29,603 nt of DNA, from positions 1-29,603 of the IMG/VR virus record IMGVR_UViG_3300035670_000984; one strand, 5' to 3'. Shown one piece after another: positions 1 through 8,177 of the stretch. How positions within the stretch are numbered: position 1 is the stretch's first letter; each line of letters starts with the position of its first letter. This DNA is from a virus. Position numbers and translations under genes: made by a program. The notes beneath the pieces were generated by a model. The model was not told the DNA's origin. It made no database searches and worked only from the letters and a program-made list of their open reading frames with translations.

Positions 1-27
1 GCTGCGACTCATGTCGATTAAAAGCAT
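1..27 (-). CDS. Possible start of a downstream gene, cut by the window edge
   Basis: An ATG at 25-27 opens a frame that runs nine codons (starting MLLID) to the window edge, 31 nt after the stop of the preceding small gene. Tight spacing in a leftward operon is the only support. Nothing can be said about the product. Confidence 0.25.
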
Positions 28-58
28 TTTTGACGGCCTAGGATGCGCCGTGCTGCAT

Positions 59-277
59 TTATTTGACATGATACTTATAATCTATCACTTCTGTTATGTT
101 CGTCGCTCTGGAGCCATCTAATGGCTTCGTTTGTTGTTCCATGTACGGCCGTGCCTGTGCAATCTTTTTTTCAAGTTGCTCAATGATCATGCGCAACTCA
201 CGGTTCTGTCGCTCAAGTTCCTTAAGTTGTTCGTAATCTTTAATTAGCTGAATAAAAGTTTCCTTGCTGATTTCCAT
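59..277 (-). CDS. Small coiled-coil protein, function unknown
   Basis: This 72-residue protein is highly charged and predicted helical. Residues about 5-45 show heptad-like spacing of Leu and Ile (LIKDYEQLKELERQN, then IIEQLEKKI), typical of a short coiled coil. The tail after residue 45 looks unstructured. The start ATG overlaps the 3' end of the preceding gene by 38 nt, as is common in this leftward operon. I do not recognise a family. The coiled coil suggests oligomerisation or binding to another phage protein, but that is inference only. Confidence 0.6.
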   Translation of the reverse strand: MEISKETFIQLIKDYEQLKELERQNRELRMIIEQLEKKIAQARPYMEQQTKPLDGSRATNITEVIDYKYHVK

Positions 278-443
278 CTATCTTTTCAATTATAGATTCA
301 AACGAATCGGTTGAGTTAATTATTGGCCCCTCGAATAGTGTGATCTGCGCAACGCCCTGGCTCTGTATTTCTCGAACTGTGTTGATCGCATCGATATTGA
401 TTAATATCTCGCCTTTTGTTGTGTTGACTATGATGTAGTCCAT
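240..443 (-). CDS. Small hypothetical protein
   Basis: The product has 67 residues and no recognisable domain. The N-terminal half alternates hydrophobic and polar residues (MDYIIVNTTKGEILINIDAI), consistent with a small beta-rich fold. The C-terminal part is acidic and then polar. It overlaps the HNH gene upstream by 16 nt and the coiled-coil gene downstream, so it is probably translationally coupled in the same operon. No function can be assigned. Confidence 0.6.
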   Translation of the reverse strand: MDYIIVNTTKGEILINIDAINTVREIQSQGVAQITLFEGPIINSTDSFESIIEKIDGNQQGNFYSAN

Positions 444-790
444 GCTGGTATCTTTTCGCCTCGTTCGTTAAATATAAACTCTACTGTTATGCCTTTGAAC
501 TCTTGCCGTGTCTTTTCACCGTGGCATGCTAGGCACAATGATTGATGGTTGCGCTTATCCCAGAAAGATCCACCGAGCGATGTACTAATGATATGATCTG
601 TGTTAAGTTCTGTATAATTGAACAACCGACCACACATTGCACACACCGGATTCGTTTGTCTGAATCGCTTACTGTAACGCCTCCATTCTTCAAGTGAGTA
701 ACGTTTATCCTTTGGTTTCTGTTCACGTTCTACCTTCAGTGTCGGCACTCGCTTAACTGGATTTAGATATAATTTCGATCTCGTAGCCAT
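428..790 (-). CDS. HNH endonuclease
   Basis: This 120-residue protein has the features of a small phage HNH nuclease. A zinc-binding CAMC pair at about residues 50-53 is followed by the metal-binding motif TDHI at about 68-71, an Asn/His region (KRNHQS), and a second cysteine pair CLACH with the final catalytic histidine. In this family the ββα-metal motif nicks or cuts DNA. In many tailed phages an HNH protein sits near the terminase and helps packaging; in others it is a free-standing homing nuclease. Here it lies in a replication-proximal operon of small genes, leftmost in the window, so a packaging role remains possible if the terminase lies just beyond the edge. It overlaps the upstream gene by 28 nt. 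Confidence 0.85.
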   Translation of the reverse strand: MATRSKLYLNPVKRVPTLKVEREQKPKDKRYSLEEWRRYSKRFRQTNPVCAMCGRLFNYTELNTDHIISTSLGGSFWDKRNHQSLCLACHGEKTRQEFKGITVEFIFNERGEKIPAWTTS

Positions 791-1041
791 GCTTCGTATG
801 TTTGTGCTGGATCAATGCCTTCATATTGAATATCGTATTGCTCTTGGCACCAATCGAATATCTTACCTTTCGGAACATGATTGTTTAAATCCATTTTAAT
901 TTCTGAAAGCTTCAAGGCATACTCACCAAATACATAATGGAAACGGTCTGCAATCATCATTTGCTTATCAAGCTTTACATCGTGCTTTTTTTCAAATGCT
1001 ATCACGATGTCGAACACGCTCCAATAATCTTTTACAACCAT
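763..1041 (-). CDS. Hypothetical early phage protein
   Basis: The product is a 92-residue, mostly helical, soluble protein with many Asp, Glu and Lys residues and aromatic clusters (WCQEQYDIQYEG). I recognise no catalytic motif. Its ATG overlaps the preceding 49-residue gene by 10 nt and its stop overlaps the HNH gene start, so it belongs to the same leftward operon. It may be a small accessory factor of replication or packaging, but the sequence alone does not show this. Confidence 0.6.
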   Translation of the reverse strand: MVVKDYWSVFDIVIAFEKKHDVKLDKQMMIADRFHYVFGEYALKLSEIKMDLNNHVPKGKIFDWCQEQYDIQYEGIDPAQTYEAWLRDRNYI

Positions 1042-1181
1042 ACCCGATGCACATTTATGATTACACCATGCCTGTCAATTACCGTTCCATCTACCTGGCG
1101 GAATCCTTTTTGAACAAATCCATCTTTGTCCATCGTTAGGGCTTCGACCCAATCGAACCGGTCAACTTCAACCCAACGCAT
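1032..1181 (-). CDS. Small hypothetical protein (49 aa)
   Basis: This short frame begins with MRWVEVDRFDWVEAL and ends HRVWL. It is joined to both neighbours: its ATG shares one base with the stop of the 94-residue gene upstream (TAATG), and its end overlaps the next start by 10 nt. That overlap pattern, repeated throughout this operon, is the main reason to accept it as real. The composition is basic and tryptophan-rich. No family is recognised. Confidence 0.55.
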   Translation of the reverse strand: MRWVEVDRFDWVEALTMDKDGFVQKGFRQVDGTVIDRHGVIINVHRVWL

Positions 1182-1465
1182 TAGAATGGCAATTCTCCGT
1201 TAGTATCCGCAAGTATATCAACCTCTGCTTTCGGTGCTTCCTTTGGCGCATCCAATGATCCGATGTACACCTTTGTTTCATTTGAATCCTTAGGCTGGCT
1301 CAGCTGGATGCTTCCGACCTTACCGAACTTGTCCGCTGTGTCGTTTGTCCAAATAATTACTTGAGCGTACTTCTTACCGTTGTTTCCGGTCTTAACGCTT
1401 GAATGTCCTGCTTTCGATGCTGCGAACAGGTCATCGATGCAAATTGATCCTTTGTGGTATCCCAT
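1181..1465 (-). CDS. Possible ssDNA-binding protein with an SSB-like tail
   Basis: The 94-residue product has a predicted beta-rich core (residues about 28-75, including YAQVIIW and KVYIGSL), a linker rich in Pro, Ala, Lys and Glu (KEAPKAE), and a C-terminal tip reading DTNGELPF. Bacterial SSB proteins end in a similar acidic tip (usually DDDIPF) that recruits repair and replication partners. A core, a flexible linker and an acidic LPF tip would suit a phage SSB, but the core is shorter than a standard OB-fold SSB (about 110 residues) and I cannot identify an OB motif with certainty. Its place next to the candidate origin and downstream of the primase and helicase genes supports a replication role. 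This is inference from tail and context. Confidence 0.5.
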   Translation of the reverse strand: MGYHKGSICIDDLFAASKAGHSSVKTGNNGKKYAQVIIWTNDTADKFGKVGSIQLSQPKDSNETKVYIGSLDAPKEAPKAEVDILADTNGELPF

Positions 1466-1466
1466 G

Positions 1467-1595
1467 TTAATTGAATTTTTGAATGAATTGTTTAATCTCT
1501 TTTTGTATCGCTTTCATACCGTACTTCTCGATTACGCTCTCACGAACTCCAACCGGTATTTGTTTTAGTTTGTCATCTATTTTTGGCCTTCCCAT
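1467..1595 (-). CDS. Small basic protein, first gene after the origin-like region
   Basis: This 42-residue frame starts MGRPKIDDKLKQIPVGV and is Lys/Ile-rich. The opening G-R-P-K with a following P-V-x-V-R resembles small phage proteins of the ribbon-helix-helix or DNA-binding kind, but it is too short for a firm call. It starts 18 nt downstream of a TATATTTG promoter-like box, and its stop is one base before the ATG of the SSB-like gene. It therefore appears to head the leftmost operon. A regulator or origin-binding accessory role is possible but unproven. Confidence 0.55.
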   Translation of the reverse strand: MGRPKIDDKLKQIPVGVRESVIEKYGMKAIQKEIKQFIQKFN

Positions 1596-1612
1596 ATCGT
1601 ATTGTTGTACTG

Positions 1613-1620
1613 CAAATATA
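1613..1620 (-). promoter_or_regulatory. Promoter -7 box TATATTTG
   Basis: On the minus strand this reads TATATTTG, an exact match to the Bacteroidota -7 consensus TAnnTTTG. It lies about 18 nt before the ATG at 1595. No good -33 TTTG element is seen in the A/T-rich DNA upstream. The identical 8-mer also stands before the structured RNA at 4950-4957 and before the early operon at 13159-13166. Confidence 0.55.
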
Positions 1621-1662
1621 TATTTTATTTTATTTATTTAATCCGAATCTCATGTAAAAATT

Positions 1663-1854
1663 TGTAAACTTCTTGCCTTGTAAACTTGTAAACTTCTTTT
1701 TAAGTTTGTTAGAATCACTTTTTGTAAATTTGTACCTATAGTTTTTTCTTATTTTTATTAAAAGAAGTTTACAAAATAATATAATATATTAATAATCAAT
1801 ATATTAGAGTGTAAACTTCTCTGTAAACTTCTTGTAAACTTCTTGTAAACTTCT
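1663..1854. repeat. Iteron-like 11-bp repeat array with AT-rich core (candidate replication origin)
   Basis: The 11-mer TGTAAACTTCT occurs perfectly six times in direct orientation, at 1663-1673, 1687-1697, 1810-1820, 1822-1832, 1833-1843 and 1844-1854. It occurs once inverted at 1763-1773, and a partial copy lies at 1679-1687. The last four are almost perfectly tandem, with starts 12, 11 and 11 nt apart, about one helical turn. Between the two clusters lies a run of nearly pure A/T (about 1741-1809). The array fills most of the 280-base gene-free gap between the helicase gene and the leftmost operon. Iterons plus an AT-rich unwinding region beside primase and helicase genes is the classic layout of an iteron origin in plasmids and phages. 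A repressor-operator array is the main alternative. Confidence 0.65.
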
Positions 1855-1875
1855 CATGATTTTGGCAGATGTTTA

Positions 1876-3414
1876 CTAAAATGGCAGGTCATTTGCCTGA
1901 TTTTTATCAAATCTGTAGGTCTCAACAACTGATTCAGCCTCTAAAATCTCGTTTTCAGTAACGAAATGTTTACGTTCTAATATGAACGGATAACCAACTG
2001 TTGTATTATCAGTATCACCAAAAAAGTTAACATATCGAATGCTCTTTTCTGATTTTTCAACTTTCATATCCTTTGTCAAAACCTTACCAATAAAATGCAA
2101 ATTAACATTGTGATTATTTTTAAAATAAGCTTCCTTTATATCCTTTGGTGAAAAATATATTTGCTTGGCCGTACAATTTAAAAAAACATCTTTAAATATC
2201 TCAAGAAGGTCTTTGTGAAGCCAATTTCGAGATTCATTTTTAACCTCCTCAAGTTTATCTGTCCAAATATCATCATAGGTGAAAACCATCCTTGATTTTG
2301 TAGTGTCAACTTCAGGTAACGATAAAAGATAATTTAAAAAATAAGGAACTTCCTTTACCATCTTGTTTTCGTAGTCAGTTACCAGGTTTTGTATTTTGTT
2401 AATTTTACGCACCCAAAAGCGTATTTCTTCGCTATCAATACGCATAAATTCGTCTTCCTTGTTTGTGGCCATTACTACCTTTCCAAAGAATGGAATTGAA
2501 TACTGGCTTACGTGTTTTTGATTAACGGTCAATGATTTCTGAGTGCTAATTGTTTTAAGCTTCTCTACTGCGGAGTTTTTTTCGATAACTGTCTCATCAA
2601 TGGCAATAACGTTTTTTGTTGCGTATAGGTGGTTAAACGAGTTGTTAAGGTCATCTGGCTTTATAAGAACGTAATTGTCGCCAAATAGCAGTTCAAGCAA
2701 GTTAAGAAAAGTTGTTTTACCTGTGTGTCGTTCTTGAGACACTAACACCAATATCGGAAGTATCTGTTTTGGCATTGTGTACATCACTTGCATATAGATG
2801 TAACCTTTATCAATCTGCTCCTTAAAAATATGATCCATAAGCGAATGGATAAGCGGAAACTCACCAGGCTCTGAAGAAGGCCGGTGTGGAAATGGAGCGT
2901 AAAGATTATAGTTGTTGTTATGAAATTCCTGATACTCTAAATTGTCTGGTATAATGGTGAAGTCATTAAACTTTGGAATATCCTTAATAATTTCCTTGCC
3001 ATGATCATCTATAATCGTTTCTTTCTTCCAGGTCTTTAATTTTTTTAATTCAGTTCCATATCTGGTTTCTTTTTCGATTACCTTATAATAATCACCAGCA
3101 ACACGAATGTATGGTATGTTCTTTTTTAACACCTTATACTCAATGTAGTATTGAGCATCCCAATGATTTGATTTAAAACAAACTATTGTAAGCAATTGAA
3201 ACAATGTCAAGTTTTTCTCACCATATGTTACGATTTTTCCATCAAAAACTATCCTTTCATTTGATTTATTATCTAATGCCTCACTTGAGTTAATAATGGT
3301 GTAATTTTTGGCATTTGCAAATATTTCAATGAAATCGCCATGCTCATTAAACCAATCAACTGGATTGTAATGCTTTTGAATTGCAGATACCTGCTTTTTG
3401 TTAATGTAACTCAT
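1876..3414 (-). CDS. SF3-type replicative helicase (DUF5906-like)
   Basis: This 512-residue protein has an SF3/AAA+ ATPase core in its middle third. The Walker A region is SQERHTGKTTFLN at about residues 227-239, Walker B is NVIAIDE at about 268-274, and a motif C region follows as GKVVMATNKED with an arginine-finger-like IRFW after it. Such proteins (DUF5906, often annotated as primase or helicase C-terminal domain) unwind DNA at phage and plasmid origins. The start overlaps the upstream primase-like gene by ATGA, so the two are probably made together as a split primase-helicase. The extreme C-terminus reads NQANDLPF, resembling an SSB tail, which is unusual for a helicase. The candidate origin lies immediately downstream. 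The region is AT-rich. Confidence 0.8.
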   Translation of the reverse strand: MSYINKKQVSAIQKHYNPVDWFNEHGDFIEIFANAKNYTIINSSEALDNKSNERIVFDGKIVTYGEKNLTLFQLLTIVCFKSNHWDAQYYIEYKVLKKNIPYIRVAGDYYKVIEKETRYGTELKKLKTWKKETIIDDHGKEIIKDIPKFNDFTIIPDNLEYQEFHNNNYNLYAPFPHRPSSEPGEFPLIHSLMDHIFKEQIDKGYIYMQVMYTMPKQILPILVLVSQERHTGKTTFLNLLELLFGDNYVLIKPDDLNNSFNHLYATKNVIAIDETVIEKNSAVEKLKTISTQKSLTVNQKHVSQYSIPFFGKVVMATNKEDEFMRIDSEEIRFWVRKINKIQNLVTDYENKMVKEVPYFLNYLLSLPEVDTTKSRMVFTYDDIWTDKLEEVKNESRNWLHKDLLEIFKDVFLNCTAKQIYFSPKDIKEAYFKNNHNVNLHFIGKVLTKDMKVEKSEKSIRYVNFFGDTDNTTVGYPFILERKHFVTENEILEAESVVETYRFDKNQANDLPF

Positions 3415-4274
3415 AACTCAAGTTTTTCAGATTGGCCCTTTTTTATCATTGTCCTAATGGTTTTTTTGTAGGTATCAGCTTTTTTACATAAATAACTGTG
3501 ATTGTCAATTAATCGGTCAATTACATCTATAGCTATTGATTCAGAAATGTATCCAGCTGCTACGTATCCACCCATTGCATAAGATGCAGCACGAACTATA
3601 TAATGGCCTTCATTTACAATTTTATTAAACCTACTTGATATTATTTCAATAACCTTGTTTTCGTCATCATATGAACTGTAAATTCTGATATTCTCTGATT
3701 TTGCAGGTTTAGGTTCAATGTACTTGTCCGTGAAGTAATCAAAATCTGATTTCATGCACATCTCATAATCGTATGAATAAAAAAGAGGAAGTACCGGATT
3801 CTGGCAGGCCATATCAAAACCGTTGTATATCTTAAACTTTTGTTGGAGTGCCTTAAACCTTAACTTATATTCATCTATTGTTTTGCATTGAGCAACGGCC
3901 ACAAGACCACGAACGCCTTTACCTGAAGATGACAACCAAGATGCAATTACGAATGGATATTTTATTAATTCAAACTTTAATGAGATGGCATCATCATGGC
4001 TTAACTTATCGAAGTCAAAAGGCATAATTTGAGTAAAGTAATTAATATTTTCATACTTGCGCAATGAACAATTCACGGCTGGTGTAAAAAAAGGTAATTT
4101 CGCCTTTAATTTATGCTTAAGTTGCTCATCATTTTTATTTGCAGCTTGATGTATTTTTGTTATATGATTCTTTAATTCATTAGGTGGATTCCATATCATT
4201 GTTAACAATTCGCCTAATGAAATAAATTCCGCAGGTTCTGTAATGTAAACGCCACCTTTATAGAATGGTATCAT
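3411..4274 (-). CDS. Primase-like protein (VirE-N/BT4734 family)
   Basis: This 287-residue protein resembles the VirE-N/BT4734-like N-terminal domain common in Bacteroidota mobile elements. Recognisable parts are an acidic block in FDFDKLS (about residues 86-92), then ASWLSSSGKGVRGLVAV (about 110-126), and DMACQNPVLPLFYSYD (about 154-169). In this fold a conserved Asp pair and a serine/lysine-rich strand resemble the archaeo-eukaryotic primase active site. It is followed at once by the SF3-type helicase through an ATGA overlap, and together they look like the two halves of a primase-helicase. Its ATG overlaps the end of the nuclease-like gene by 17 nt. The primase activity is inferred from family and context. 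Confidence 0.7.
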   Translation of the reverse strand: MIPFYKGGVYITEPAEFISLGELLTMIWNPPNELKNHITKIHQAANKNDEQLKHKLKAKLPFFTPAVNCSLRKYENINYFTQIMPFDFDKLSHDDAISLKFELIKYPFVIASWLSSSGKGVRGLVAVAQCKTIDEYKLRFKALQQKFKIYNGFDMACQNPVLPLFYSYDYEMCMKSDFDYFTDKYIEPKPAKSENIRIYSSYDDENKVIEIISSRFNKIVNEGHYIVRAASYAMGGYVAAGYISESIAIDVIDRLIDNHSYLCKKADTYKKTIRTMIKKGQSEKLEL

Positions 4275-4836
4275 TTTTTGATATTTTTTTAATTATGTTA
4301 CTATAATTTATAGGATGTATTCCGTGATTATTGGCAGTCATATATCTTTTTGGCTCTGATTCAAATAATTCATAATTGCTAAATATAAATGAATAGCTTT
4401 TGTCGCTCCAACTCCTAACTTCACCTATATTAAATTCGCCTAAAAATCCATTCATTGAATGATGTGGTGAATCAGGAAAATGCCTATCAGTATGCCAATG
4501 TATTCCATCTTTATCTATTCTTGTTTCTTCTACCATAACAAAATATTTAAATGATAGTGGTGGTGCTATTAATATCGGTATATGTCTTGTATGGCCATAT
4601 ACTTGAAATTTCAATCCTGAATATCTCATTGCTTGTTTAATATACTTGCCAATTTCAGCACCTTTTTTGCGGTCAAATCGTTTGCACTCAATTCCAAAAA
4701 CATATTTTGGATTTTGTTTATGTACCAAAACCAAGTCTATTCTTGCACTATTGCAAGTAGATTTCACTTCACTTAACACATAAAATTGCATTTGAAAAAC
4801 TAACTTTAATTTTTCAACAAATTCTTTTTCAGTCAT
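4258..4836 (-). CDS. PD-(D/E)XK-like nuclease, unknown role
   Basis: I place the start at the ATG at 4836 (192 residues, MTEKEFVEKL...). The same frame continues up to a GTG at 4899, but that lies inside a strong RNA hairpin. The motif order IDLVLV (Asp), about 14 residues, GIECKR (Glu-x-Lys) matches the PD-(D/E)XK nuclease core, and a helix with an Ala-Met-Arg face (KYIKQAMRYS) follows. Later parts (IPILIAPPL, WHTDRHFPDSPHHS) are not recognised. The gene follows a structured RNA with a terminator-like hairpin, so expression may depend on read-through or on a start below the hairpin. The gene is strikingly AT-rich and precedes the primase-like gene with a 17-nt overlap. It could be a recombination nuclease, a Holliday-junction-type enzyme or a host-DNA nuclease. 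Confidence 0.55.
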   Translation of the reverse strand: MTEKEFVEKLKLVFQMQFYVLSEVKSTCNSARIDLVLVHKQNPKYVFGIECKRFDRKKGAEIGKYIKQAMRYSGLKFQVYGHTRHIPILIAPPLSFKYFVMVEETRIDKDGIHWHTDRHFPDSPHHSMNGFLGEFNIGEVRSWSDKSYSFIFSNYELFESEPKRYMTANNHGIHPINYSNIIKKISKNDTIL

Positions 4837-4856
4837 ATTTGCAGATTTTACAAAAC

Positions 4857-4945
4857 AAAAAACCCCAAAGTAATCGCAGCCTCTCACCTCTGCAACCACA
4901 ATGGGGTTTATTTCTTAATTCGGTATAACGTGAGAGGCCGAATGC
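4857..4945 (-). ncRNA. Structured small RNA or leader with complementary hairpin loops and a terminator
   Basis: Read on the minus strand, hairpin 1 pairs ATTCGG (4938-4943) with CCGAAT (4918-4923) and has the loop CCTCTCACGTTATA. Hairpin 2 pairs AAACCCCA (4902-4909) with TGGGGTTT (4860-4867), has a 2x2 internal loop of U residues, then a 10-bp inner stem (4890-4899 with 4870-4879) and the loop AGGTGAGAGG (4880-4889). The loops are complementary over 8 nt: CCTCTCAC and GTGAGAGG, or 9 bp counting the adjoining base of each stem. This allows a kissing loop or a competing long-range helix. Hairpin 2 is followed by T residues (4857-4862) and looks like an intrinsic terminator. A TATATTTG box at 4950-4957 puts a start near 4945. 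The segment is visibly richer in G+C than its flanks. It could be a free sRNA of about 90 nt or an attenuator for the genes at 4836-1876. Confidence 0.7.
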
Positions 4946-4949
4946 ATTG

Positions 4950-4957
4950 CAAATATA
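4950..4957 (-). promoter_or_regulatory. Promoter -7 box TATATTTG before the structured RNA
   Basis: The minus-strand 8-mer TATATTTG matches the Bacteroidota -7 consensus and sits about 7 nt before the first base of hairpin 1 of the RNA at 4857-4945. It lies just after the stop of the PAPS-reductase-like gene at 4964. No clear -33 TTTG is visible. Position, rather than a full two-element match, supports it. Confidence 0.55.
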
Positions 4958-4963
4958 CTAAAA

Positions 4964-6187
4964 TTATTTAATGTTTAACTCTATGTTAGATGCTATTTTA
5001 CGCTTATTTTGAATTTCTTTAAATTGATAATAGGCATCTGATTTCGGTTGTGTTTGTCCTAATCCTTTGCACCAATAATCATTGCGTAAAATAACCTTAC
5101 AAAGTCTTCGCCATGAAGGCACCCAACATTTGTTTTCGAGGTCTTCAGGTGCTTCATCTGGAATTGATAGATACCCACGGTCTTGCCAACTTTTAATAAA
5201 CTTCACAAAACGTTCTCTGTAATGCAAACTTGTTTTTTCTGGCATTGTCTGAAGTAATAAATTACAAAAAGATTTCCAAGTATGCCCGTCTGGTTTTACA
5301 ATTTTATTATATCCAGTAATATTTCCATTTTCTTGAATGTAAAGTGTCCCAGAATTGACTCCATTAACTCTTGATACTACTTTATACCATGTTTCTGGTT
5401 CTAATATATGATATAACCATAGACCACGCCTTTGATCATCACCATATGGCTGGCATAATCTTTGCTGCGATATTTTTACACCTGCCCTACTCATTTTATC
5501 ATAAACTCTATTGTATATTAAATCATTATTTTTCCCGTGATAAATCCAAATATCTTCTGTTTTCCAATCATAAATTGGATATACATTATAAAGATTTGAT
5601 GCTATCAATGTAGTCCATTTTTTATTATTATAGCATAAACCTTCCTTGTTTGAAACAATTGCCCTATACCTGTGTAAAGATTCATCGGCCCTTATGCCTA
5701 TTAATGCAGCAGTTAATTCTCCTTTTGAATACCATTTGCCAAATAAGACCATAAACTCTTCAAATTCCATTTTAGGTACATAAAAATCATATTGATCTAA
5801 ATTGGCAGCCAAATATGGTTTTTCTCTTACCCATAAATCTTTTTTAGTTTCATCCCAACATATCCACCTTGGTTCATAATTTGATACTGCATTTCTTAAT
5901 AGCAATTCAGCACAAACCCAATGCAATTCAATATTATCTTTGTATGTATTAACTATATTATTAATGTGTTTAATAGTATCATTGTATTGTGCCTCTAAAT
6001 CAATTATTAAAAATCCTACCTTACGTTTTCTTTTTTGAGCCTCTTGTAAAACCAAATGAGTCATTACTGTTGAATCTTTACCTCCACTAAATGAAACATA
6101 AATTTTATTGAAATTATCAAATATATATGATATTCTTTTTTTTGATGCTTCAAGTACATCGATATCTAAATAATGTTTAGTTGCCAT
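4964..6187 (-). CDS. IbrA-like PAPS-reductase-family protein (DUF3440-like)
   Basis: The 407-residue product has the PP-loop ATP-binding motif SGGKDST at residues 34-40, within IYVSFSGGKDSTVMTHL, the hallmark of the PAPS reductase/ATP pyrophosphatase superfamily. Further features typical of the DUF3440/IbrA group are GIRADES, a KTEDIWIY segment, QRLCQPYGDDQRRGLW and the C-terminal block PSWRRLCKVILRNDYWC. It starts one base after the stop of the ParB-like gene, reproducing the IbrB-IbrA gene pair. In E. coli, IbrA and IbrB act together as activators of prophage genes; their chemistry is not settled. The fold adenylates or transfers sulfur on substrates, as DndC does in DNA phosphorothioation, so action on nucleic acid is plausible but inferred. 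The gene is notably AT-rich. Confidence 0.8.
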   Translation of the reverse strand: MATKHYLDIDVLEASKKRISYIFDNFNKIYVSFSGGKDSTVMTHLVLQEAQKRKRKVGFLIIDLEAQYNDTIKHINNIVNTYKDNIELHWVCAELLLRNAVSNYEPRWICWDETKKDLWVREKPYLAANLDQYDFYVPKMEFEEFMVLFGKWYSKGELTAALIGIRADESLHRYRAIVSNKEGLCYNNKKWTTLIASNLYNVYPIYDWKTEDIWIYHGKNNDLIYNRVYDKMSRAGVKISQQRLCQPYGDDQRRGLWLYHILEPETWYKVVSRVNGVNSGTLYIQENGNITGYNKIVKPDGHTWKSFCNLLLQTMPEKTSLHYRERFVKFIKSWQDRGYLSIPDEAPEDLENKCWVPSWRRLCKVILRNDYWCKGLGQTQPKSDAYYQFKEIQNKRKIASNIELNIK

Positions 6188-6188
6188 A

Positions 6189-7316
6189 TTAATAAATATT
6201 TACTTGTCTACCAATTGATAATGCCTCTTCAATAGTCAATTCATCAAATCCATTGCGTTTATTCCAAATATTTAAATATTCAAGTGCTGTGTTATTAGCA
6301 ATGTTTTGTTGTTCATTAGTCAACAGATTGAATCCAGAACAAAATTTAGATGGCACACCGGTTGCATAACACATTGACGCCTGACCTAACCAAGAAATTC
6401 GATTCATAGCTTTATTTGTCAAGTAATGTTCGCATGAATGCTTCCATTCTGTAATTACTTTTTCAAGAGTTTCTCTAAATAAATTATCATTTGATAAAAA
6501 TTCAGCATATGCAAGTTCGCATTGTTCACCTGTCATACCATCTTTTTTAGATGCATAAAAACCGGCTTTATGACATTCCCATTTATCATATGTATGGAAT
6601 ATTCTATTTGGGTCAGATGTATTAACTGTCCTATAATCAGCACTTAAAATTTCTGTATCATCAATATCTTCATATGAATTAATGTAATCAGAAGATTCCC
6701 AGGATTTACTAAATGCTTCATCCTTAAATATTTCTGATAAACCAGTAATTTGACATAATCTTAAAATTTCTTCTTGATCCATTCCAAGTTCTTTGGCAAT
6801 TCGTTCATTTTTCCAATTTCTTGCTTTTAATTCAAGTACAATTTCACTCATTGCATCAACTTGATGTTTTCCTCTGGCCCTATTATGCCGTATTGTAGAT
6901 GCTATTCTATCATTTTTGTCGGATTGTTCTTTGCGGATAATAACCGTTGGTAAGTATCCATTTATCCTTTGTTTTACTATTTTGCTTTCCTTACCAACTC
7001 TGTTACGGTGAAAACCATCAATAACCTCATATTTGCTTTTAGTTTCTGAAAACCAAGTAACGATTGGTTGAGTATAACCATCATTCATAATTGATATTTC
7101 AAGTAATTCCATCTCTGGAGGAGCAACTTTATTTGGATTATAATCATTGGCAACTACTTCATCGTTTTTTTGCCATATTACCAAATCCACTGGCTCATTT
7201 TTAAATGGTGAATGTTCATGTATTAATTTTCTTAATTCATTAATAGTTTCAACTTTTAAATTAAAGTCATCAATTGATTTTAAATGTTGTTCAATACTGT
7301 TTTTTAAATCTATCAT
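6189..7316 (-). CDS. IbrB-like ParB-domain protein
   Basis: This 375-residue protein contains a ParB/sulfiredoxin-type domain at about residues 50-150. ANDYNPNKVAPPEMELL matches the ParB box I region, and YEVIDGFHRNRV the box II region with its Gly-x-x-Arg core. An HTH-like segment follows at about 165-195 (NERIAKELGMDQEEILRLCQ). The C-terminal half has no recognised motif. The gene is immediately upstream of the PAPS-reductase-like gene with one base between them, the IbrB-IbrA arrangement. ParB-like domains bind nucleotides (CTPase in ParB) and related DGQHR domains occur in DndB. It begins its own transcription unit after a terminator at 7387-7422 and behind an 18-bp palindrome at 7364-7381. 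AT-rich composition sets the pair apart from flanking genes and suggests acquisition as a cassette. Confidence 0.8.
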   Translation of the reverse strand: MIDLKNSIEQHLKSIDDFNLKVETINELRKLIHEHSPFKNEPVDLVIWQKNDEVVANDYNPNKVAPPEMELLEISIMNDGYTQPIVTWFSETKSKYEVIDGFHRNRVGKESKIVKQRINGYLPTVIIRKEQSDKNDRIASTIRHNRARGKHQVDAMSEIVLELKARNWKNERIAKELGMDQEEILRLCQITGLSEIFKDEAFSKSWESSDYINSYEDIDDTEILSADYRTVNTSDPNRIFHTYDKWECHKAGFYASKKDGMTGEQCELAYAEFLSNDNLFRETLEKVITEWKHSCEHYLTNKAMNRISWLGQASMCYATGVPSKFCSGFNLLTNEQQNIANNTALEYLNIWNKRNGFDELTIEEALSIGRQVNIY

Positions 7317-7346
7317 TTTATAATGGTTTTAATTGTTACATAAAAA

Positions 7347-7381
7347 GATTGTTTAATGATTGTAAATGATTGCAATCATTT
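7347..7381. promoter_or_regulatory. Palindromic operator candidate before the IbrBA pair
   Basis: AAATGATTGCAATCATTT (7364-7381) is a perfect 18-bp palindrome. Its half-site AATGATTG occurs again as a direct copy at 7355-7362, 10 bp away, and a weaker GATTGTTT lies at 7347-7354. It lies 48 nt upstream of the ATG at 7316 and just after the preceding terminator. Its size and place fit a dimeric repressor or activator site controlling the IbrB/IbrA unit. No TAnnTTTG box is visible here. Confidence 0.55.
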
Positions 7382-7386
7382 TTTTT

Positions 7387-7422
7387 AAAAACCACCACCA
7401 ACATCTTTATGCCGGTAGTGGT
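7387..7422 (-). terminator. Intrinsic terminator ending the early operon
   Basis: On the minus strand ACCACTACC (7414-7422) pairs with GGTGGTGGT (7391-7399), a 9-bp stem with one G-U pair, followed by TTTTT. It lies 32 nt after the stop of the 81-residue gene at 7454 and separates the operon that starts near 13.1 kb from the IbrBA unit. Confidence 0.75.
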
Positions 7423-7453
7423 CAATCACATGAAAATTTAAAATCGCAAAAGT

Positions 7454-7699
7454 CTATCTTATCAGTTCATCCAGGTTCACATTATGTTCATCAAGTATCT
7501 CGTAGATCCTATCGAATACCATAGACACCGCCTCATGACTGTTCATCTCTTTAGCTTCGCAGTTGTAAAGTAATCCTTTACAACTGTTGTGGCATATCTC
7601 CCATAGTGCAACTGACATGTCCAATGACTTGCTGCATCGTGTGAATGCCATCGTATCGTCTGAATCGTTTAAATCGAATTTAAGTATTGCTTTGGCCAT
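7454..7699 (-). CDS. Small hypothetical protein
   Basis: This soluble 81-residue protein is mixed alpha/beta. It opens with a short strand (MAKAILKFDLNDS) followed by a long helical part containing Cys and Trp residues (LWEICHNSCKG) and ends in an acidic helix (RIYEILDEHNVNLDELIR). Similar small early proteins with the pattern xKFDLNDxDD are frequent in phages, but I know of no defined function. It overlaps the VRR-NUC-like gene by 20 nt and is the last gene before the terminator at 7387-7422. Confidence 0.65.
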   Translation of the reverse strand: MAKAILKFDLNDSDDTMAFTRCSKSLDMSVALWEICHNSCKGLLYNCEAKEMNSHEAVSMVFDRIYEILDEHNVNLDELIR

Positions 7700-8177
7700 T
7701 GTTAAGTTGTTGTGTTAAGTTATCCCAATAATTCAAAAAATCCTCCATCGACCGCACGATGATGTACACCCCACCGGATCGCTCTATTTGCTGCTGGTAT
7801 ACCTTCTGATATGTTGATTGTCGGTCTTTACCTATTTTCACTTCTACCTTAAGAGAAACGCCTGCGATTGTAGCGGAAATGTCAGCAGAACCACGCTGAC
7901 CCGATGTCGGTATGTACGTCATTGATCCGATTGTTTTTGTACGCCCAACAACATCCGTTACATTCTTACGCTTGTCAATCACTCGGCCCATTGTGTTAAT
8001 GCGCTCGGCATGGTAACCGCTCATGTTTACCCAGTCAATAATTAACCTGGTCAAACCGTTCGCCGTCGCATCTGATGGAATCTTGACGCTGCGTACGTGA
8101 TCCGGTAGGTTCGGGTACTTTCGCCTGGATTCTGCAAGGTATAACGCTTGAACTCGTTGTCGTGTTTCTTTGGTCAT
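7680..8177 (-). CDS. VRR-NUC-like nuclease
   Basis: In this 165-residue protein the C-terminal half carries the VRR-NUC/PD-(D/E)XK pattern. G-S-A-D (residues about 96-99, GQRGSADISAT) supplies the catalytic Asp, KVEVKIG (about 109-115) supplies E-x-K, and a helix with YQQQIERSGGVYIIV completes the fold, matching the Q-x3-Q/R and Gly-Gly spacing of phage VRR-NUC domains. Such enzymes act on branched DNA or ends during phage recombination. The N-terminal 60 residues are basic. It overlaps both neighbours (ATGA with the methyltransferase-like gene, 20 nt with the next gene), so it belongs to the early operon. The G+C content is higher than in the modification genes nearby. Confidence 0.7.
   Translation of the reverse strand: MTKETRQRVQALYLAESRRKYPNLPDHVRSVKIPSDATANGLTRLIIDWVNMSGYHAERINTMGRVIDKRKNVTDVVGRTKTIGSMTYIPTSGQRGSADISATIAGVSLKVEVKIGKDRQSTYQKVYQQQIERSGGVYIIVRSMEDFLNYWDNLTQQLNNGQSNT

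Follow-up and report, generated by a model that had tools for sequence, protein, structure and literature searches.

A probable iteron-type replication origin beside a DUF5906 helicase gene in a tailed phage

We identified a repeat array at positions 1653–1854 of an IMG/VR virus contig that is very probably the iteron-type replication origin of a tailed phage, with the product of the adjacent helicase gene acting as its initiator. The contig was analyzed over its full length of 29,603 bases (hereafter the window) and encodes a tail tape measure, a head-tail adaptor and neck proteins. Its host probably belongs to the Bacteroidota, judging from sequence resemblances: the BT4734-like domain of its primase, the related helicases on Bacteroides and Phocaeicola plasmids and the match of its SSB-like protein to a Tenacibaculum phage. 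The initial annotation of this DNA had marked the gap as a candidate origin, and the comparison with relatives supports that assignment. We observed the repeats themselves, their link to DUF5906 helicases in many lineages, the concerted change of the repeat copies, and the joint exchange of the array with the winged-helix part of the helicase. The features discussed below are the following.

1181–1465, minus strand: 94-residue protein ending in GELPF, SSB-like by its tail (phrog_24909; 55% identity with its positional counterpart in locus L008)
1467–1595, minus strand: 42-residue protein, the first gene past the array (present in 3 of 81 loci)
1613–1620, minus strand: promoter-like box TATATTTG upstream of the 42-residue gene (reads CAAATATA on the plus strand)
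1653–1733, plus strand: second repeat cluster, with exact copies of TGTAAACTTCT at 1663 and 1687, one copy with a single mismatch at 1679 and two weaker cores (1653, 1723)
1763–1773, minus strand: inverted copy of TGTAAACTTCT, opposite the tandem cluster with the AT-rich core between them
1774–1809, no strand: AT-rich core of 36 bp (91.7% A+T), candidate unwinding element
1810–1854, plus strand: tandem cluster of four exact copies of TGTAAACTTCT at steps of 12, 11 and 11 bp (place, period and core are equal in L008)
1876–3414, minus strand: DUF5906 SF3-type helicase of 512 residues, the putative self-loading initiator (Pfam DUF5906, 7.7e-18; AlphaFold model matching the NrS-1 C-terminal region and the SaPI5 primase-helicase)
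1969–2229, minus strand: C-terminal winged-helix domain of the helicase (residues 396–482), the putative iteron reader on the basis of fold, cassette exchange and covariation
3411–4274, minus strand: primase-like protein whose N-terminal domain is BT4734-like (most relatives likewise encode it upstream of their helicase)

The array contains six direct exact copies of TGTAAACTTCT (starting at 1663, 1687, 1810, 1822, 1833 and 1844 on the plus strand) and one inverted exact copy (1763–1773, minus strand). No further copy was found elsewhere in the 29,603-base window, and 0.026 copies are expected by chance (first-order Markov model, whole window, both strands). All of the copies listed in the initial annotation for 1663–1854 were thus recovered, as were the near-tandem run of four copies with an 11–12-bp period and the promoter-like box bounding the gap, which lies on the minus strand and follows TAnnTTTG, a Bacteroidota promoter box. 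The same annotation described the clusters as flanking an A/T-rich stretch of about 70 bp. The flanking was confirmed, but the length was not: the two direct clusters are separated by 112 bp (1698–1809; 84.8% A+T, with the inverted copy inside), and the core proper is 36 bp long. The A+T content of the whole window is 61.9%. When the one-mismatch copy at 1679 and the cores at 1653 and 1723 are counted, the gap holds nine TGTAAA cores on the plus strand and one on the minus strand. Over the whole window, the 11-mers TTTTTACCAAA and TTTTACCAAAT are present in four copies each.

Read along the minus strand, the primase-like protein and the DUF5906 helicase come first, followed by the array, the 42-residue protein, the SSB-like protein and, later, an HNH protein. 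The array lies directly 3' of the helicase gene, whose stop is at 1876 (minus strand), and the primase gene adjoins the helicase gene on its upstream side, where a primase homologue is also found in most relatives. A Pfam and PHROGs scan of ten replication-side ORFs detected no Rep_3- or RepA_N-type initiator. The initial annotation had concluded that no classical Rep initiator was visible, whereas we propose that the helicase itself plays this part. GC skew, which had been suggested there as a check, was computed and is uninformative on the origin: it is negative in nearly every 1-kb bin, and nearly all identified genes lie on one strand. The helicase ends in NDLPF and the 94-residue protein in GELPF, ends that resemble the acidic tip of SSB proteins. 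In the helicase alignment (A4) the terminal F is invariant and the P nearly so, so a tail of the SSB type may be common to all members of the helicase family.

We surveyed the sequence behind the helicase gene in 81 loci, namely 80 viral helicase loci obtained from alignment A3 (L030 included) and the window. A locus was considered testable if its helicase gene was complete and was followed by 200 bp or more of sequence, which was the case for 74 of the 81 (L062, L104, L108, L112, L119, L125 and L030 offer too little sequence). The 400 bp after the stop were called repeat-enriched if no more than 2 of 200 dinucleotide shuffles reached the observed top 7-mer count or periodicity. By this measure 73 of the 74 testable loci are enriched, 68 by 7-mers alone and 49 by periodicity alone; L123 is the one that is not. 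Tandem detection based only on lags (autocorrelation) misses several arrays, reaching the threshold of 2 in 200 in 49 of 74 loci and, together with 7-mer counts, in 73 of 74. Because the 81-locus set includes near-copies, we clustered the 76 complete-ended helicases at 93%, which left 27 representatives. The densest 7-mer cluster of the whole locus sits right after the helicase in 25 of the 26 testable representatives. The sole exception, L123, has a GTTACAAA cluster at 4310–4640, ~3 kb before the helicase stop; it was kept in this count and left out of alignment A4 and the covariation analysis. Conversely, L062, with 94 bp after the stop, was left out of the count and kept in both A4 and the covariation analysis.

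Individual relatives illustrate how the array changes. For instance, L008 (helicase 59% identical) keeps the gene order of the window, with an extra 88-residue ORF between the array and the small protein. In its gap, TTTACAACATA repeats recur every 11 bp and are accompanied by an AT-rich stretch and further TTTACA copies, so the repeat core and the spacing persist while the remainder of the repeat has changed. L008 also carries a terminase-like ORF (by eye). In L029 (helicase 45% identical), five GTAAATG repeats at 11-bp steps follow the helicase, and the homologue of the 42-residue protein is placed elsewhere, at 499–675. Loci L030–L042 have TTAGAAAAG repeats at the equivalent place where their sequence reaches that far (L030 read by eye). 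A tblastn search of phages with the helicase returned 52 records, nearly all from Pseudomonas, at ~24% identity over 46% of the query. None of the 329 pattern matches from a scan of genome contigs with the helicase alignment was confirmed, and the primase as query among viral sequences yielded no confirmed relative.

In order to compare array anatomy across lineages, each of the 26 representatives was scanned with its own repeat matrix, and same-strand spacings up to 30 bp were counted. The commonest spacing is 11 bp (48 of 153 spacings; 70 of 153 fall at 10–12 bp), and it holds even for GTCCCAC or TAGAAAAG repeats. The anatomy is maintained (about ten copies, 11-bp steps, an AT-rich core) and the repeat sequence varies by lineage, with all copies changing in concert within a lineage. 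Relatives with unlike repeats can have their copies at nearly equal positions, such as GTCCCAC in L077 and GTAACAG in L085. In the usual layout, a loose cluster is followed by one or two facing inverted copies, then by an AT-rich stretch (~34–71 bp, by eye) and finally by a tandem cluster. Read by eye, the tandem cluster adjoins the helicase stop in the window, L008, L055, L063, L066 and L126, and lies at the far end from the helicase in about 15 other representatives (five are unclear). The module therefore has no fixed orientation with respect to the helicase gene. The next gene is nuclease-like in many representatives (by eye), encodes a short MPIP protein in L055, L063 and L064, and is helicase-like in L057; the window and L008 have other proteins there. 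These next-gene families are a rough guide, as a short ORF inside the array was taken as the next gene in several rows. Since the next gene belongs to several unrelated families, the array goes with the helicase.

Arrays also follow helicase genes on plasmids. Three Bacteroides/Phocaeicola plasmids with helicases 34–35% identical to that of the window were read, and in all three the helicase gene is followed by an array. Within the 340 bp around and after the helicase stop we counted five repeats of the TTGAGA type (OY726024.1), nine of the TGATGA type (NZ_AP019725.1) and six of the TTGTTGA type (NZ_OY725957.1), where 0.13–0.24 copies are expected from the rest of the stretch. A fourth plasmid match, OY726032.1, was left out of this count. 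Tenacibaculum phage JQ, the only record with a match to the SSB-like protein, has no comparable array in the stretch examined. As a separate observation, the Bacteroides plasmid pBUN1 (L045, 5935–8428) carries a DUF5906 helicase, a repeat array and a toprim gene beside MobV, and this segment also adjoins an extended-spectrum beta-lactamase gene.

The protein that reads the repeats is best approached through two groups of loci in which the array differs. We compared the L076 cluster (5 members, TGTAAAA repeats) with the L089 cluster (17 members, GTAAT repeats), which gave 85 cross pairs. At the DNA level, the earlier part of the helicase gene is 92% identical, its last 360 bp 63% (61–65), the array 57% and the next gene 87%. 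Inside the L076 and L089 clusters the last 360 bp are on average 95% and 90% identical, respectively (minimum 83). The break in identity aligns with residue 390–391 of the window helicase, which is the ATPase/winged-helix junction. The differing segment thus comprises the winged-helix part and the array, and it ends where the next gene starts.

Across the 26 representatives, repeat similarity correlates with the identity of the winged helix (r = 0.48), the ATPase (r = 0.38) and the N domain (r = 0.30). Given the ATPase, the partial correlation of the winged helix with the repeat is 0.32 (1 of 2000 permutations), and in the reverse direction the ATPase given the winged helix retains −0.01. Given the N domain, the winged helix retains 0.40 (0 of 2000) and, in reverse, the N domain given the winged helix −0.06; in both cases the permutation test ignores phylogeny and the repeat cores were chosen by the analyst. 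The signal is not sharply localized within the helicase: the recognition-helix window alone gives r = 0.37, below the value for the whole domain, and windows at 365–404 give partial correlations of 0.26–0.30, close to those from 440 on (0.28–0.36). One pair, L083 and L075, has a repeat similarity of 0.97 and 95% identical ATPases with winged helices just 56% identical, so that the winged helix also diverges without a change of repeat.

Taken together, these sequence comparisons favor the winged-helix domain at the helicase C-terminus as the protein part that would bind the repeats. Among the readers suggested in the initial annotation (the primase, the helicase and the 42-residue protein), exchange and covariation favor the helicase, and the 42-residue protein falls away with its presence in 3 of 81 loci. 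It is unlikely that the array is an origin read by some other protein, such as a host DnaA-like protein, the primase-like protein or an unseen small protein, with the helicase C-terminus merely linked to it. The winged-helix coding part does adjoin the array; linkage may therefore explain some of the joint exchange, which by itself does not distinguish between linkage and interaction. However, the exchange starts at the ATPase/winged-helix junction and stops at the start of the next gene, the other neighbor of the array, which stays unexchanged between the two clusters, and winged-helix similarity is still informative after control for the other domains. A host protein is a poor candidate for the reader, given that close relatives have different repeats. 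We suggest, more tentatively, that winged helix and array might form an exchangeable replication-specificity cassette, swapped or rewritten as a unit by this phage group. Such a cassette would keep the origin specificities of near-identical phages separate, like plasmid incompatibility groups, and swapping it might evade competition from co-infecting relatives or from satellites that target the origin.

Structural models of the helicase are consistent with this assignment. AlphaFold2 on the 26 helicases gave a mean pLDDT of 80.7, and the C-terminal 101 residues modeled alone reached 85.6, with the order helix-strand-helix-helix-strand-strand. The best fold match of the helicase model is the NrS-1 C-terminal region (Z 23.8, rmsd 5.3, 349 aligned); other matches include the SaPI5 primase-helicase (Z 17.4, rmsd 5.3, 309 aligned) and PriRep1 with dsDNA (Z 14.3, rmsd 4.6, 290 aligned). 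A profile of the 26 helicases matched no chain among PDB sequences at E up to 0.01, and hence the SaPI5 and NrS-1 links rest on fold. For the isolated winged helix, Foldseek found nothing in the PDB at E up to 0.001 (best 0.3), and VIA-align returned general winged-helix proteins at Z 4–6, with P4 alpha absent from the matches. These matches of the modeled domain agree with a winged-helix fold and name no close relative.

With the helicase as initiator, its C-terminal winged-helix domain would bind the TGTAAACTTCT repeats, and helicase subunits would gather at the clusters that flank the AT-rich core. The core at 1774–1809 would melt, helicase rings would then load, and the primase-like and SSB-like proteins would take part in starting forks, replication thereby beginning at the array.

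The repeats could instead be operators, on which a repressor, perhaps the 42-residue protein, would control the operon at 1595 and beyond. The array does lie upstream of the 42-residue gene with the promoter-like box in between, the L008 array is likewise ahead of a homologue of this gene, and the 42-residue protein occurs in three loci with TGTAAA arrays (the window, L008 and L029/L083, L083 being the contig of L029). Nevertheless, we consider this explanation very unlikely, because arrays persist without a detectable 42-residue protein and ahead of several unrelated next genes, the module stands either way round relative to the helicase gene, and the exchanged unit comprises the helicase C-terminus and the array without the next gene. 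In addition, a locus with a homologue of the 42-residue protein, L049, has no TGTAAA cluster in the stretch examined. The 42-residue protein was also considered as a general binder of the arrays and rejected: a profile of the three homologues matches just the window, L008 and L083 among the 81 loci, so it cannot be the general repeat reader. The viral scan for this protein added L048, a near copy of the L029 region without the helicase, and the above-mentioned L049 (6720–6842), which has a phage context and a DnaA-like short ORF (by eye).

A centromere-like partition array of the ParR/parC type, bound by a small DNA-binding protein, is extremely improbable: parC of plasmid R1 resembles the array in having two clusters of direct 11-bp repeats with a small protein encoded nearby, and a ParB-like protein is encoded at 6189–7316, but the Pfam and PHROGs scan of the ten replication-side ORFs found no ParM, ParA or ParR gene, the ParB-like gene is apart from the array, and an array is present behind the helicase gene in 73 of 74 testable loci and, in one group, has been exchanged along with the helicase C-terminus.

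The proposed helicase-read origin has counterparts in known systems, which are compared here on the basis of excerpts of the cited papers. In the excerpt of PMC6092414, the SaPI/PICI origin lies immediately 3' of the helicase gene with two iteron sets flanking an AT-rich region, and this design is reported as exclusive to PICI satellites. For SaPI Rep, the C-terminal domain is described as recognizing iterons directly downstream of its own gene (PMC7581432, excerpt). The window shares with SaPI/PICI elements (SaPIbov1, SaPI5 and E. coli PICIs) a primase plus a replication helicase, a 3' array and iterons flanking an AT-rich region. It differs in belonging to a tailed phage with its own tail and head-tail genes, rather than a satellite, and in having a DUF5906/NrS-1-like helicase and a separate BT4734-like primase; its family also has 11-bp spacing, many repeat sequences and a module in either orientation. 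With a repeat array (the putative origin) 3' of the helicase gene and a primase beside the helicase, the window has the decidable features of a SaPI/PICI replicon and would work like one; as an element it is not a PICI.

Other initiators share parts of this scheme. According to the excerpt of PMC7581432, SCCmec Cch2 uses its C-terminal domain (400–538) in vitro to bind direct repeats located just past its gene, at the putative origin, much as we propose for the window helicase; Cch2 differs in its three short AAGTG iterons and polymerase-type primase pair, and it is not from a phage. In the P4 alpha protein, a helicase-primase, origin repeats are bound by the winged helix, after which the protein carries out unwinding and priming (PMC4234260, excerpt). 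Winged-helix binding of origin repeats would be common to both systems, whereas in P4, a satellite phage, primase and helicase are fused and the primase is of the toprim type. The same excerpt describes pRN1 ORF904 as an SF3 helicase with a C-terminal winged helix and an origin 3' of its own gene that forms a stem-loop. It would thus resemble the window in helicase type, C-terminal domain and downstream origin; it differs in that the origin is a 100-nt stem-loop without iterons, the element is an archaeal plasmid and the primase is fused. The NrS-1 primase-polymerase is a DUF5906 protein (PMC9611036, excerpt) and, as noted above, the best fold match to the window helicase (Z 23.8). In NrS-1, by contrast, the helicase part is fused to a PrimPol domain, and the comparison covers the helicase fold.

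The analysis yields a candidate origin and a candidate initiator for a group of uncultured phages whose hosts are probably Bacteroidota. Our literature search, whose scope left out most subscription journals, found no earlier description of how these phages start replication. The PICI-type origin design would be extended to tailed phages and Bacteroides plasmids, and DUF5906 would be assigned a role within a self-loading initiator. The mechanism is known in kind; the phage setting and the modular exchange are new. Because natural exchange of the domain together with its repeats has provided many matched pairs of reader and site, a recognition code for winged-helix initiators is directly testable.

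Two further observations concern neighboring genes and other arrays. A PAPS-reductase/DUF3440 protein (4964–6187, minus strand) adjoins the ParB-like protein (6189–7316, minus strand), and this pair is conserved beside primase-helicase genes in L030 and L050–L053; phage relatives of the pair carry the annotation IbrA and IbrB. A DNA search of a phage collection with positions 1–8000 of the window returned 21 records, with short matches under these two genes. Finally, a DNA pattern search for TGTAAACT triples retrieved 19 other contigs, most of which share a ACTGTAAACT array of a different kind; they were kept outside the helicase family and its counts. ACTGTAAACT repeats at 10-bp steps with TGTAAACTTTACA dyads are present in L009–L011, L013, L015–L017, L019–L022, L026 and L027. 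The ACTGTAAACT array may be another iteron origin, and in L022 it lies just before a gene for a 743-residue primase-helicase-like protein (by eye).
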